Source: an uncultured Anaeromyxobacter sp.
GTDB taxonomy: Bacteria > Myxococcota > Myxococcia > Myxococcales > Anaeromyxobacteraceae
Direction: 5' to 3'
Length of the DNA: 64,000 nucleotides
Assembly (NCBI GenBank): GCA_903874275.1
Contig: CAIQRS010000084.1
Span: 1 to 64,000, forward strand
The position numbers were made by a program, and so were the translations under genes. The notes under the pieces were generated by a model. It was not told where the DNA came from and did not search any database. It saw only the letters and a list, made by a program, of their open reading frames with translations. Of the stretch, positions 50,341 to 55,248 are shown piece after piece (the stretch's first letter is position 1; every line of letters begins with the position of its first letter).

Positions 50341-50344
<4 letters not shown>

Positions 50345-51693
50345 CTTCCTCCGCCCGCCGCCGCCGCTCCCTTGCCGCTCTCTCCGCTGCGGTCGAGGGC
50401 CAGCTTGAAGAGCACCGGGCCGAAGAGCTCGTTCAGCGCCACGGCCGCCACCGCCAGCGCCCCGAACTGGGCGCCGAAGGCGGGGAACTGCCCCTGCATC
50501 CTGGCGGCGATCCCCAGCGCCAGCCCGGCCTGGGAGACCAGGCCGGCCCATCCCCATGAGCGCAGCTCGGGTGGATCGCCGGCCAGGCGGGCGGTGAGCC
50601 GCGCTCCCACCACCGCGGTGGCGGCCCGGACCGCGAAGAAGAGCAGGGCCGCCGGCCAGAGGGTCTTCAGCAGGGGGAGGTCGAGGTGGGCGCCGGCGGT
50701 GGCGAAGAAGATGACGTAGACCACCTCGCCGGTGTTCTCGATGGCGTGCAGGAGCTTCTCCCCCTGCCGGGAGAAGTTCTGCACCACGAAGCCGGCGGTG
50801 AGGAAGGTCAGCAGCCACTCGAAGCGGAGGTAGGCGATGACGTCCACCACCACGAGGCCGAGCAGGAGGAGCACGAGAAGCACCTGCCGGCCCACGAAGC
50901 GCAGGTAGGCGACCAGCAGGAGCCCGAGGGTGGTCCCGATGGCGACGCTGCCCAGGAGCTCGTGCCCCAGCTCGCCGAAGGCGGCGAGCGAGAGGGTCGC
51001 GCCTGGCTCGAGCAACGGCCGCACCCCGGTCATCACCAGCGCCAGCAGCACGACCACCACCACGTCGGAGGACATCACGAAGCCGACGGTGAAGTCGGTG
51101 AGCCGCCCGGCGGGGCGGGTCTGGGAGAGGATGCCCATGACCGCGGAGGGGCTGCGGGTGATGGCGACGACCCCCCAGAGGAGGGCCACCGCGAAGACCG
51201 CCGGAAGGGGCATGCCGCGGGTGAACGGGACGAGATCGCGGGCCAGGACGAAGGTGGTGGGGATGACCAGGAGCGCCAGCCCGTTCTGGACCACGGTGGC
51301 CGCGACCAGGCTCCGGAAGCCGCGCCGCAATGCCTCGAGCCGGAGCTCGGCGCCGCCCGCCAGCGCGATGAGCGAGAGGGCGAGCGAGTTCACCACCGAC
51401 AGGTCGGCCACGGTCTGGTGGTCCACGGCGTGGAGCACGTAGGGGCCCGCCACGATCCCGGCGAGCAGGAAGCCGGTCAGGTGCGGGAGGCGGACGACCT
51501 CCAGGAGGCTCGAGGCCAGGGTCCCGGCGAGCAGGAAGAATCCGACCGCGGCCAGGTCGCGTCCGGTGCGCTGCCACTCGCCGGGGAGGGAACCGGCGAG
51601 CCGTTCGACCCCCAGCATGAGCGCGAAGAGGCCGAGCAGGGCGCCGAGCTCGAGGAGGCGGGTCCAGGGACCCTTGCGGGCGGGCGCGCTCAC
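50341..51693 (-). CDS. CPA-type cation:proton antiporter membrane protein
   Basis: Inner-membrane protein of 450 residues with about 12 hydrophobic segments. HLTGFLLAGIVAGPYVLHAV is the usual TM2-3 opening of CPA2 transporters; AITRSPSAVMGILSQT and GFVMSSDVVVVVLLALVMTG occupy the ion-site positions, with Ser-Asp rather than the Asp-Asp or Asn-Asp pair. The last residues are Gly/Ala-rich. It starts with GTG that overlaps the stop of the upstream antiporter-like gene by four bases. No Trk/KefC-type NAD-binding domain is attached. The ion and direction of transport are unknown. Confidence 0.75.
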
Positions 51694-52874
51694 GTCGGCA
51701 CCTCCCCGGCCCGGCGCAAGGCCCGGCGAAGCGCCGGTGGACCGAGGAACTCGCCGGCCACCGCGGCGGCGACGGTGGTGGCCAGCACCAGGTCACCCAC
51801 GGGTCCGGGGTAGCGAAGATTCACTGATAGTGCAATGGCGATCCCCAGCGGACCGGTGGAGAAGAAGGCCAGGGAGAGTCCGGGCCCCCCACGCCGCGCC
51901 ACCGGGTCCACCGCCGCGACCACCGCGGCGGCCAGCAGCGCCGTCCCCAGCCGCGCCAGCAGGGCCGCGGCCACGATCCAGAGGGCCGGGCCGGAGACCA
52001 TGTCCGTCCGGGCGCCGGCCAGGAAGAGGGCCGGGAGGATCACCGCCCCCTCGACCCCGCCCGCCAGCGTGCGCGCCTGGGCCCGCAGGGGCGAGGCGAT
52101 GGCCAGGAAGAGCCCCAGGGAGAACCCGGTCGCCAGCACCGACAGGTCGAGCCGCTGGGCGAGCCCCGTGCCGAGCAGGGAGAATCCGAAGAGGAGCGAC
52201 CAGAAGGTCACCGGGCGGAGCGAGCGTCCGAGCAGCCCCGCGAAGACCAGGCCGAGGACTCCACCCACGGCGAGGCCGCCGCCGGGGAGGGCCATCACGC
52301 CCCGCGAGGTGTCGAGCGACATGAGGAGGCTCATGGCCGCGATGGGGACGAGGTCGTCGGAGCGGGTGATCCCGGCCACCCGCTCGATGAGCGGGCCCCC
52401 CGCGCCCAGCCGCTCGGAGGCCCAGCGGGCCACGTGGCGGGAGGTGTCGGCCAGGGCCGCGGCGAGGCAGACCGCGAGCGCCAGGCGTTGCTCCTGGTCC
52501 GGGAAGAGGGCGCCGGCCGCGGGAACCCGTTCGAGGACGAGGAGGACCGCGCCGCCGACCCCTGCGAGGGAGAGAAGCCCCACGATCACCCCGAGGGCCA
52601 CGGCCCCCGCACCGACGCGCCGTTCCCCGTCCACGCCGAGGGTGAGCCCGACGAGGAGCGCGATCCAGCCGGTGGCGAGCAGCGCCAGGGGGGCGAAGCG
52701 GGCCACCTCGGCGCCGCCCACGAGTCCCAGCGCCGACGGGCCGGCGACGAGGCCGGCCAGCAGCCACTCGGACCCGGACGGCAACCCCCGGCCGCGCAGC
52801 CCGCGCCCTCCCATCAGGAACCCGCCCACGTAGGCGACGAGGAGCAGGACGAACAGCGACTGCAGGGTGCTCAC
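51690..52874 (-). CDS. Second, divergent CPA-type antiporter-like membrane protein
   Basis: Membrane protein of 394 residues, about 12 helices. SEWLLAGLVAGPSALGLVGG matches the CPA2 opening, and the ion-site region reads AALADTSRHVARW and GITRSDDLVPIAAMSLLMS, this time with an Asp-Asp pair. It is not a copy of the downstream antiporter but a distant relative. GTG 52874 overlaps the stop of the MscS-like gene and its own stop overlaps the next GTG, so the three genes are translationally coupled. A heteromeric transporter is the simplest reading (inference). Confidence 0.7.
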   Translation of the reverse strand: MSTLQSLFVLLLVAYVGGFLMGGRGLRGRGLPSGSEWLLAGLVAGPSALGLVGGAEVARFAPLALLATGWIALLVGLTLGVDGERRVGAGAVALGVIVGLLSLAGVGGAVLLVLERVPAAGALFPDQEQRLALAVCLAAALADTSRHVARWASERLGAGGPLIERVAGITRSDDLVPIAAMSLLMSLDTSRGVMALPGGGLAVGGVLGLVFAGLLGRSLRPVTFWSLLFGFSLLGTGLAQRLDLSVLATGFSLGLFLAIASPLRAQARTLAGGVEGAVILPALFLAGARTDMVSGPALWIVAAALLARLGTALLAAAVVAAVDPVARRGGPGLSLAFFSTGPLGIAIALSVNLRYPGPVGDLVLATTVAAAVAGEFLGPPALRRALRRAGEVPT

Positions 52875-54361
52875 GCCGCCCCCGCCGCTCCAGGACCGGG
52901 TCGGCCCAGCTTCACCCCCTCGGCGCGCAGGGCCGAGGAGACGCGCACGGCCAGGTCGGCTCCGGGTCCGGCCACGCGGTAGAGCGCCCCGGTTGCGTCG
53001 AGGCTCACCAGATCGGCCGCGGTGCCCGGGCCGCCGGTCCGCAGCAGGATCTCCCGGACCAGCGCCTGGTCCTCGGTGGAGTCCACCGAGAGCTCGAAGC
53101 GGGCCGCCGCGGCGAGGCCGGGGAGGCGGGTCGGGAGGATCAAGGTGGCCAGGTGGGGGACGAGCACCCGCCGGCCCGACGCGTCCTCGACCTCGACGTC
53201 GAGGAGCCCGACCGCGCGCACGATCCCCGTCGTGGCGCCGATCTCGGCGACGTGCCCGGTCCGGTAGACCCTCCCCAGGAGGCGCGGCAGCCCGGCGGCC
53301 ACGCTGGCCAGCACCGGCGCCGCCGCCAGCCCCACGGCCAGCAGGGCGGCCTGCCCCAGGTTCGCGAGCATGCCCTCGTCGCTCCCGGTGAGGACCGGCG
53401 CGGCGAACACCGAAGCCACGATCACGAGCGCGATGCGCAGGAGCTGCCCGACGGGCACCGCCAGCTCGGCCGGCATCCAGCGGAGGTGGGTCTCGCCGGC
53501 CGCCACGCTCCCGAAGAAGAGCCGGACGGCGCGCAGCCCGAGCAGGAGGAGGGCGCCGGCCACGATGGCGGCGATGGTGGCCGGGATGGCGCCGCCGACC
53601 CGGGCCAGCGTGCTCGCGGCCGGACCGAGGACCACCTGGCCGAGGTGGAGCCCGGCGCCGCGGGTGGAGGGGAAGAGGGAGAGGGCGAAGACGACCCAGG
53701 CGTAGGCGATGACGATCTGGAGCACGACGCGCCCCACCCGGATCCCCACGGCGAGCGCGCCGGCCACCCCCTCCGGGCTCACCAGCTCGACGCCCCGCAG
53801 CCGGAGCGCCGGGGCGCGCCCCCTGCGCTCCCGGATGGTCGATTCCACGCCCCGGTCGAGGTCGCCGATCTTCCGGAGGAGCAGGAAGGCCACCAGCCCC
53901 GAGAGGACGAGGAGGGAGAAGTGGAAGACCAGCTCGGCGATGCGCGCCCTGCGCCGCTCGACGCGCAGCACCCGGTCCACGTCGGAGGCGGCGGATCGGG
54001 AGAGCTCCTCGATCCCCGGGAGCCCGGCGGCGGCGACGTCCTCGGGACCGAGCTCGAGGACCACCACCTTGCCGACGCGGATCGACGCCGCGTCGCCCTG
54101 CAGCTCGACCACCGCTTCGCCGGAGGGGCCCGCCTCCATGACGTCGGCGAGGGCCTTGCTGGCCGCGCGGGCGCGGGGCGCCGCCTCGACTCCGCCGCGC
54201 GATGCACGGAGGGTGAGCACCCGGGCATCCCGCAGGGTCACGTCGGCGCCGGCCGGGGCCGGCGGCGGAGCGGCCTCGGCGAGCACGGGCAGGAGGGCGA
54301 GGAGGAGCGCCAGGATCACCGGCCCAGACTCACGGAGGGGCCGGCCGATGGTCAAGGGCAA
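52871..54361 (-). CDS. MscS-like mechanosensitive-channel family protein
   Basis: Protein of 496 residues. Signal peptide at the start (RESGPVILALLLALLPVLAEA), a periplasmic domain (35-165), then hydrophobic segments including FHFSLLVLSGLVAFLLLRKI and IPATIAAIVAGALLLLGLRA. The MscS core is at NLGQAALLAVGLAAAPVLAS, then YRTGHVAEIGATTGIVRAVG and RRVLVPHLATLILPTRLPG. The Gly/Ala packing of TM3 and the beta domain are as in MscS, but the pore helix is divergent. TTG 54361 is the likely start. It heads a three-gene set with two antiporter proteins. Confidence 0.75.
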   Translation of the reverse strand: MPLTIGRPLRESGPVILALLLALLPVLAEAAPPPAPAGADVTLRDARVLTLRASRGGVEAAPRARAASKALADVMEAGPSGEAVVELQGDAASIRVGKVVVLELGPEDVAAAGLPGIEELSRSAASDVDRVLRVERRRARIAELVFHFSLLVLSGLVAFLLLRKIGDLDRGVESTIRERRGRAPALRLRGVELVSPEGVAGALAVGIRVGRVVLQIVIAYAWVVFALSLFPSTRGAGLHLGQVVLGPAASTLARVGGAIPATIAAIVAGALLLLGLRAVRLFFGSVAAGETHLRWMPAELAVPVGQLLRIALVIVASVFAAPVLTGSDEGMLANLGQAALLAVGLAAAPVLASVAAGLPRLLGRVYRTGHVAEIGATTGIVRAVGLLDVEVEDASGRRVLVPHLATLILPTRLPGLAAAARFELSVDSTEDQALVREILLRTGGPGTAADLVSLDATGALYRVAGPGADLAVRVSSALRAEGVKLGRPGPGAAGAA

Positions 54362-54426: not shown

Positions 54427-55248
54427 ATGACCCTCTCGACCCTGCTCGCAGCCATCGCCCTCGCCGCCGACCCGGTGGCCTTCGTCGCCGTCGCCCCCGG
54501 CTATCCCGGGACGACCGCCGAGGCCCAGGCGTCCATGGACGCCTTCGCGGCGGCCCTGGCCGCGCAGTCGGGGCTGCCGGCGGGGTCGGTCACCGCCGCC
54601 TACTTCGAGAAGGACCGTCCGGGGGCGGAGCGGCTGCAGAAGCCCGACGCGGCCCTGGGCATGGTCGCGCTCCCGTTCTTCTTGAAGGAGGGGGAGGCGC
54701 TGCGCCTCGAGCCCCGGCTCGGCGCCGCCCAGAAGGGGACGGGCGCCACCGAGGTCTGGGCGCTGGTTGCGAAGAAGGGTCGGGTGAACGGTCCGGCCTC
54801 CCTCGACGGCTGGCAGGTCAGTTCCGTCGCTGGCTACGCCCCGGCCTTCGTCACCGGCACGGCCCTGGCCGGGTGGGGGCGGATGCCTTCGACCGTCAAG
54901 GTCGTGCAGTCGAGCCAGGTGCTCTCGTCCCTCCGCAAGGCGGTCGCCGGCGAGAACGTCGCGGTCCTCCTCGACGGCGCACAGGCCGCCGCCCTGCCCA
55001 CGCTCCCCTTCGCCGCCGAGCTCGAGGTGGTGGCCCGGTCCGCGCCGCTGCCCACCGGAGTGGTGGTGACGGTGGCGAAGCGGCTCACGCCCGAACGCTG
55101 GAAGGCGCTCGAGAAGGGGCTGCGCCAGCTGGGCGATCGCCCGGACGGGGCGGCCGCGCTGGAGGCCATCCGGCTGCAGGGATTCGTCCCGCTCGACTCG
55201 GAACTCCTGGCCGCCGCTCGCAAGGCATACGCGGGCGCGGCGAAGTGA
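54427..55248 (+). CDS. PhnD-like periplasmic solute-binding protein
   Basis: Protein of 273 residues with a weak signal peptide (MTLSTLLAAIALAADP). The pattern of two lobes, DAALGMVALPFFLKEGEALR in lobe I, SLDGWQVSSVAGYAPAFVTG and SSLRKAVAGENVAVLLDGAQ in lobe II, resembles PhnD/SsuA-type phosphate, phosphonate or oxyanion receptors, in which a buried dipole binds the anion. There is no ABC permease or ATPase next to it. The stop overlaps the GTG of the lipoprotein gene (GTGA). The ligand cannot be read from sequence. Confidence 0.6.
   Translation: MTLSTLLAAIALAADPVAFVAVAPGYPGTTAEAQASMDAFAAALAAQSGLPAGSVTAAYFEKDRPGAERLQKPDAALGMVALPFFLKEGEALRLEPRLGAAQKGTGATEVWALVAKKGRVNGPASLDGWQVSSVAGYAPAFVTGTALAGWGRMPSTVKVVQSSQVLSSLRKAVAGENVAVLLDGAQAAALPTLPFAAELEVVARSAPLPTGVVVTVAKRLTPERWKALEKGLRQLGDRPDGAAALEAIRLQGFVPLDSELLAAARKAYAGAAK

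Follow-up and report, generated by a model that had tools for sequence, protein, structure and literature searches.

Conserved pairing of two divergent CPA-fold genes in Myxococcota: a probable heteromeric antiporter, preceded in one branch by an MscS-derived gene

Introduction

Do two different CPA-type genes that lie end to end behind an MscS-like gene encode two antiporters or one? CPA antiporters are textbook homodimers, with a full ion site in each protomer. The locus that raises the question lies in a contig of an uncultured Anaeromyxobacter sp. (CAIQRS010000084.1), the first 64,000 nucleotides of which were analysed and are called the window. The three genes are referred to as C, A and B.

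Locus layout and gene junctions

All three genes are on the minus strand, C (52871-54361) first, then A (51690-52874) and last B (50341-51693). Gene C has a TTG start and encodes an MscS-like membrane protein of 496 residues, identified by PF00924, by profile and by AlphaFold with Foldseek. Gene A has a GTG start and encodes a divergent CPA-fold protein of 394 residues, identified by AlphaFold with Foldseek and by profile alignment to B. Gene B, also with a GTG start, encodes a CPA2-type antiporter of 450 residues and is the presumed transport subunit; its relatives match PF00999 and score below the cut-off of TIGR00932. The C stop overlaps the A start in a GTGA at 52871-52874, and the A stop overlaps the B start in another at 51690-51693 (both minus strand). 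The coordinates, strand and both overlaps of the initial annotation are exact in the sequence.

The C-A-B order occurs in ten genomes from seven families (G000, G001, G024, G025, G047, G115, G116, G162, G182 and G186). The annotation had called for a search for this order in other genomes, with a lack of conservation counting against it; the order proves to be conserved well beyond close relatives. The C/A overlap is 4 nt at all ten loci, window included, and the A/B overlap is 4 nt in the window and in 43 of 48 other pairs; a simple gene caller supplied the starts for genes outside the window. Recurrence of the order, with these 4-nt overlaps, across ten genomes and seven families rules out a chance gene neighbourhood. 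The arginine decarboxylase gene speA is convergent with the operon. Divergent from C, at 54427-55248 on the plus strand, lies a gene for a phosphonate-binding-like periplasmic protein with weak likeness to the sterol-binding protein BstB. A scan for sigma-70 promoters, which is uninformative in G+C-rich sequence, found none.

A and B are homologous CPA-fold proteins

The window copies of A and B themselves have no match in a Pfam search. Their relatives match Na_H_Exchanger (PF00999), those of B down to 7e-34 and those of A down to 4e-17. AlphaFold models A (pLDDT 85, pTM 0.86) with the whole CPA fold, scaffold half included, and the model matches NapA, SOS1 and NHA2 with a Foldseek probability of 1.00. 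The profile of B matches NHE, NhaP and NapA structures. The NhaA/NapA fold of the CPA superfamily is therefore seen in A by AlphaFold and Foldseek, and in B by PF00999 in its relatives and by profile matches to PDB structures. The two profiles align over 357 columns (hhalign, E 1e-26), showing A and B to be homologous, and the A profile also picks up the adjacent B.

Trees place A and B in two separate clades whose branching largely matches, and the longer branches of A indicate that it evolves faster than B. All tree support values come from short tree searches.

Distribution and co-inheritance of the pair

Among 195 Myxococcota genomes, the A profile matches 101 and the B profile 103, in nearly the same set. 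The number of genomes with a pair is given as about 100, since a few on the list (e.g. G188) hold only single-gene relatives fused to EIIA; the genes have been co-inherited in many soil myxobacteria. The mismatches between the lists are an A fragment with no B found where the assembly is broken (G131), a B fragment at a contig end (G002), an A whose divergence kept it below the threshold but which was found on inspection (G186), and an A located elsewhere in the genome (G183). Across the 195 genomes, every A found was accompanied by a B in its genome, apart from cases at contig ends. Strong B matches occur in 24 of the 60 nearest genomes, with an A-type gene directly upstream wherever the contig allowed. 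A scan of genome contigs with window B returned two close relatives only; in plasmid searches, A had no matches and B had three distant ones, all single-gene. The coupling of two antiporter genes put forward in the annotation is thus borne out by the near-constant A/B overlap and by profiles that match nearly the same genomes.

Several other arrangements of related genes were also observed. A B-type antiporter domain is followed by about 800-1000 further residues in three genes (L146:1429-5886, L112:5744-9499 and L110:5638-9501); the extensions in L112 and L110 have weak AAA/STAND-type matches, that in L146 has none, and the long L146 gene adjoins TrkH- and TrkA-like genes. Genome G077 encodes a B paralogue about 1000 residues longer, beside TrkH/TrkA-like genes and without an A, and also has its own A-B pair. 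Three consecutive antiporter genes, A-B-B', are found at L106:4089-8017. Single-gene relatives of A and B of about 560-600 residues (L113:3660-5348, L115:4290-6077 and L116:237-1997) have Asn-Asn at motif positions 6-7, and a C-terminal EIIA fusion is shown by Pfam for L113 and L116.

Ion-site residues

Position 7 of the CPA motif, D164 in NhaA, holds the Asp of greatest weight in CPA proteins. The motif positions 6, 7 and 8 and their meaning are those of Masrati et al. 2018 (PMC6181914), by whose rule an acid at position 6 and a Lys at position 8 mark electrogenic members and proteins without them are electroneutral; a base occupies position 8 in 95% of CPA proteins and is missing in about 5%. 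Position 8 was mapped to NapA K305 via the single-gene relative L150. Residues were counted over 51 B and 49 A proteins, and with many of the genomes being near relatives these counts are not independent events.

In the window, B has S209-D210 at positions 6 and 7 (51064-51069, minus strand), an Arg at R356 (50626-50628, minus strand) and an Ala at position 8, four residues further on. The Asp at position 7 and the Arg one turn before position 8 are present in 51/51 B proteins, in which an acid at position 6 and a base at position 8 are each found in 0/51. Window A has D173-D174 at positions 6 and 7 (52353-52358, minus strand), a conserved Arg at R308 (51951-51953, minus strand) and Ala312 at position 8, four residues past it, where 43/49 A proteins have Lys or Arg. 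An acid is present at position 6 in 42 of the 49 A proteins and at position 7 in 37 (31 Asp and 6 Glu). Residues at the two positions vary among DD, EE, DA, DG, GT, GN and none, and the 12 proteins without a position-7 acid are spread over several subclades; by eye, no acidic residue is seen in the matching helix of the G183 A.

The annotation had by implication assigned ion binding to the Asp-Asp subunit, A. The pattern is the reverse, with the position-7 Asp invariant in B and repeatedly lost in A, and these counts rule out that B is the decayed subunit. The full DD..RK motif is present in single-gene relatives from plasmid records of Clostridia and Photobacterium. The simplest history is that a complete antiporter was duplicated and the A and B copies then lost different parts of the site. 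Each antiporter occurring alone with an intact site had been named as the case against a heterodimer: such proteins exist among the outgroup single-gene relatives (DD..RK in L150 and L151), and neither A nor B was itself found so.

The strongest competitor to a heteromeric pair is that A and B are two independent homodimeric antiporters, merely co-transcribed with a separate MscS-like channel as an osmotic or pH stress operon. Antiporters of known structure in the CPA family are homodimers, such as KefC (PMC11150392), single-gene relatives exist, and co-inheritance and coupling would also fit two homodimers in one pathway. Both proteins in the window, with Asp-Asp in A and Ser-Asp in B, keep the position-7 Asp, and window A may therefore transport as well. 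However, in 12 of 49 pairs an A without the position-7 acid, and in G183 apparently without the whole site, is nevertheless kept with B. The pairing of the genes, the matching subclades of A, B and C and the near-constant 4-nt overlap also speak against two separate homodimers, which are considered unlikely.

Gene C and the genes in front of A

Window C passes the Pfam cut-off for MS_channel_2nd (PF00924; 22.5 versus 20.2 bits), while some relatives score under it. The profile of C and its relatives matches MscS and YnaI structures (E 6e-10), and the AlphaFold model, of low overall confidence (pTM 0.40), matches MscS locally by Foldseek. An N-terminal domain of mixed alpha/beta structure (residues 39-112; 54026-54247, minus strand; pLDDT 82-92 over most of it) precedes the transmembrane helices and would sit outside the cytoplasm. 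The end of the MscS pore helix and the beta domain lie at residues 351-403 (53153-53311, minus strand), as placed by Pfam and by alignment with solo MscS paralogues. C shares with small-conductance channels of the MscS type (PF00924) this pore-helix end, the beta domain and the alpha/beta domain that follows; it differs from them in an altered pore helix with a VPHL motif, where solo paralogues show PN- or SN-type motifs, in a shorter C-terminus and in its fixed place before A. Window C ends in ALRAEGVKLGRPGP, possibly a remnant of the solo-paralogue end GVQIMSPHY, and most other C proteins are without such an end. C is at most a putative channel of the tension-gated heptameric MscS kind.

The C proteins of the ten C-A-B loci make up a single clade that excludes solo MscS paralogues and divides into the three subclades also seen in A and B. 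For B, one supported clade takes in these loci as well as G070, G150 and G183; the A proteins of the loci group with weaker support (86, drawn open). On these trees, C appears to have joined A-B once, in one branch of the pairs.

In G070 and G183, B has moved away and C and A are still adjacent at another place, where they were located by searching with A and C of G186. In G070 the two overlap by 4 nt (L153:4881-4884), and in G183 A apparently starts inside the end of C (L152). Survival of B alone in these genomes is thereby ruled out, and the three genes stay in one genome even when B has moved. At L144:2141-5995, the relocated B of G183 comes immediately after genes resembling those for the alpha and gamma subunits of ATP synthase.

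Most A-B pairs have other genes in front of A and no C, so the pair does not require C. In another branch these are genes for PII-like and EIIA proteins (L101, L105, L106), and in Myxococcaceae-type genomes genes for a PII-like protein and a KGG stress protein. The front gene differs by branch, which fits a model in which A-B would be the core and the front gene an input.

Individual loci illustrate the variety. A PII-like protein with a weak match to P-II structures is encoded before A-B pairs of another family at L101:5483-6299, L105:5769-6585, L106:3246-4092 and L108:3863-4222, as is an EIIA-type protein in three of the four; B at these loci has Lys-Asp at positions 6-7. At L123:5272-6117 and similar loci, a 112-residue protein resembling this PII-like protein and a KGG/LEA-type stress protein are encoded before A-B. 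In a Subdoligranulum plasmid record (L150:4609-6155), a PF00543 P-II protein directly precedes a single-gene antiporter with full DD..RK, possibly an ancestor-type arrangement.

Interchangeable front genes, together with the faster evolution of A and the decay of its ion site, would also suit an A that acts outside a homodimer of B, as a regulatory or assembly subunit, for instance a sensor or a chaperone. The complete CPA fold with its scaffold half, which A retains, would be superfluous in a pure regulator, and such a role is regarded as distinctly improbable.

Relation to known systems

The best-scoring relative of B reaches 51.7 bits against TIGR00932 (CPA2, TC 2.A.37), with a cut-off of 238.3, and is by this model a distant relative rather than a member. 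That the NhaA-fold pair carries some other substrate, such as an organic or inorganic anion, and that the antiporter label is wrong, would agree with this low score, with the position-8 base always missing in B and with an atypical TM4 motif (S-P) in the alignment, but is very improbable given the PF00999 matches of B relatives, the invariant position-7 Asp of B and the standard motif in single-gene relatives.

TC subfamily 2.A.37.6 was founded on a Myxococcus xanthus protein of the CPA2 family, Q1D5P4, of 432 residues (PMC3924187). Q1D5P4 is probably the M. xanthus B, because B proteins of Myxococcaceae-type loci are also 432 residues long and of CPA2 type; this identification with 2.A.37.6.1 is a match of length only. 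In the passages of that paper on the subfamily, the description is of a single protein, and neither a partner A nor an operon is mentioned.

NapA and NhaA, homodimeric electrogenic CPA2 antiporters, resemble A in fold and in the Asp-Asp and position-8 Lys of many A proteins, and resemble B in the position-7 Asp. They are homodimers of one gene, whereas in A-B the motif is split unequally over two. KefC, KefB and related regulated antiporters have cytoplasmic regulators and, like B, a position 6 that is not acidic (QD in KefC); KefC differs in keeping the position-8 Lys and in being a homodimer (PMC11150392), and the window operon is without a soluble regulator. In the Mrp/CPA3 antiporters several membrane proteins are needed for one antiport (reviewed in PMC9408914). 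They have an unrelated fold and seven subunits, and are similar to A-B, with or without C, only in being heteromeric.

In the literature searched, which includes few subscription papers, neither a paired or heterodimeric CPA antiporter nor an operon joining MscS and antiporter genes is described. The annotation's statement that no system of this layout has been described holds for that literature, with B itself probably already filed as TC 2.A.37.6.1.

Proposed mechanism

Elevator movement is established for the CPA family. The reading judged probable is that A and B make up one heteromeric antiporter, whose two genes arose when a single-gene antiporter of CPA2 type was duplicated long ago, with B as transport subunit, A as its partner and C as an MscS-derived accessory. 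The heterodimer suggested in the annotation remains the best account of the gene pairing, the matching clades, the near-constant overlaps and the residue pattern. Points against it are that window A keeps the position-7 Asp, that B is apart from A in G183 and G070, and that G077 has a paralogue without A.

We infer a physical complex of A and B, as well as its stoichiometry, most likely that of a heterodimer joined via the scaffold domains, as CPA homodimers are. B would be the obligatory transport subunit, with the ion-binding D210 and the invariant Arg, and would carry its ion by the usual elevator movement. It is predicted to exchange a monovalent cation (K+ or Na+, which the sequence does not predict) for protons, electroneutrally because the position-6 acid and position-8 Lys are lost (rule of PMC6181914). 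A would be its rapidly evolving partner and would determine stability or regulation, most likely as the other scaffold half and a regulatory handle. The ion site of A is intact in some lineages (Asp-Asp in the window) and disrupted in others.

The input in the window would be C, which may sense membrane tension or osmotic state and probably either passes it to the antiporter, perhaps gating it, or releases solutes beside it. C and the antiporters might hypothetically control turgor jointly, as the annotation had proposed. A further step would be that C, the pseudo-antiporter and the catalytic antiporter assemble into a single complex, a heterodimeric cation/proton antiporter gated by membrane tension and the first in the CPA superfamily; this is offered tentatively, as a doubtful extension.

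Implications

In this conserved pair, one gene never loses the catalytic Asp while the other decays; this would amount to a natural separation of protomer roles and would allow a test of whether either protomer drives its partner. Genomes of the Myxococcus type appear to contain the pair, and knock-outs are an established method there. The branch with the MscS-derived protein would offer a concrete case of a channel fold that may have been reused as a transporter regulator.
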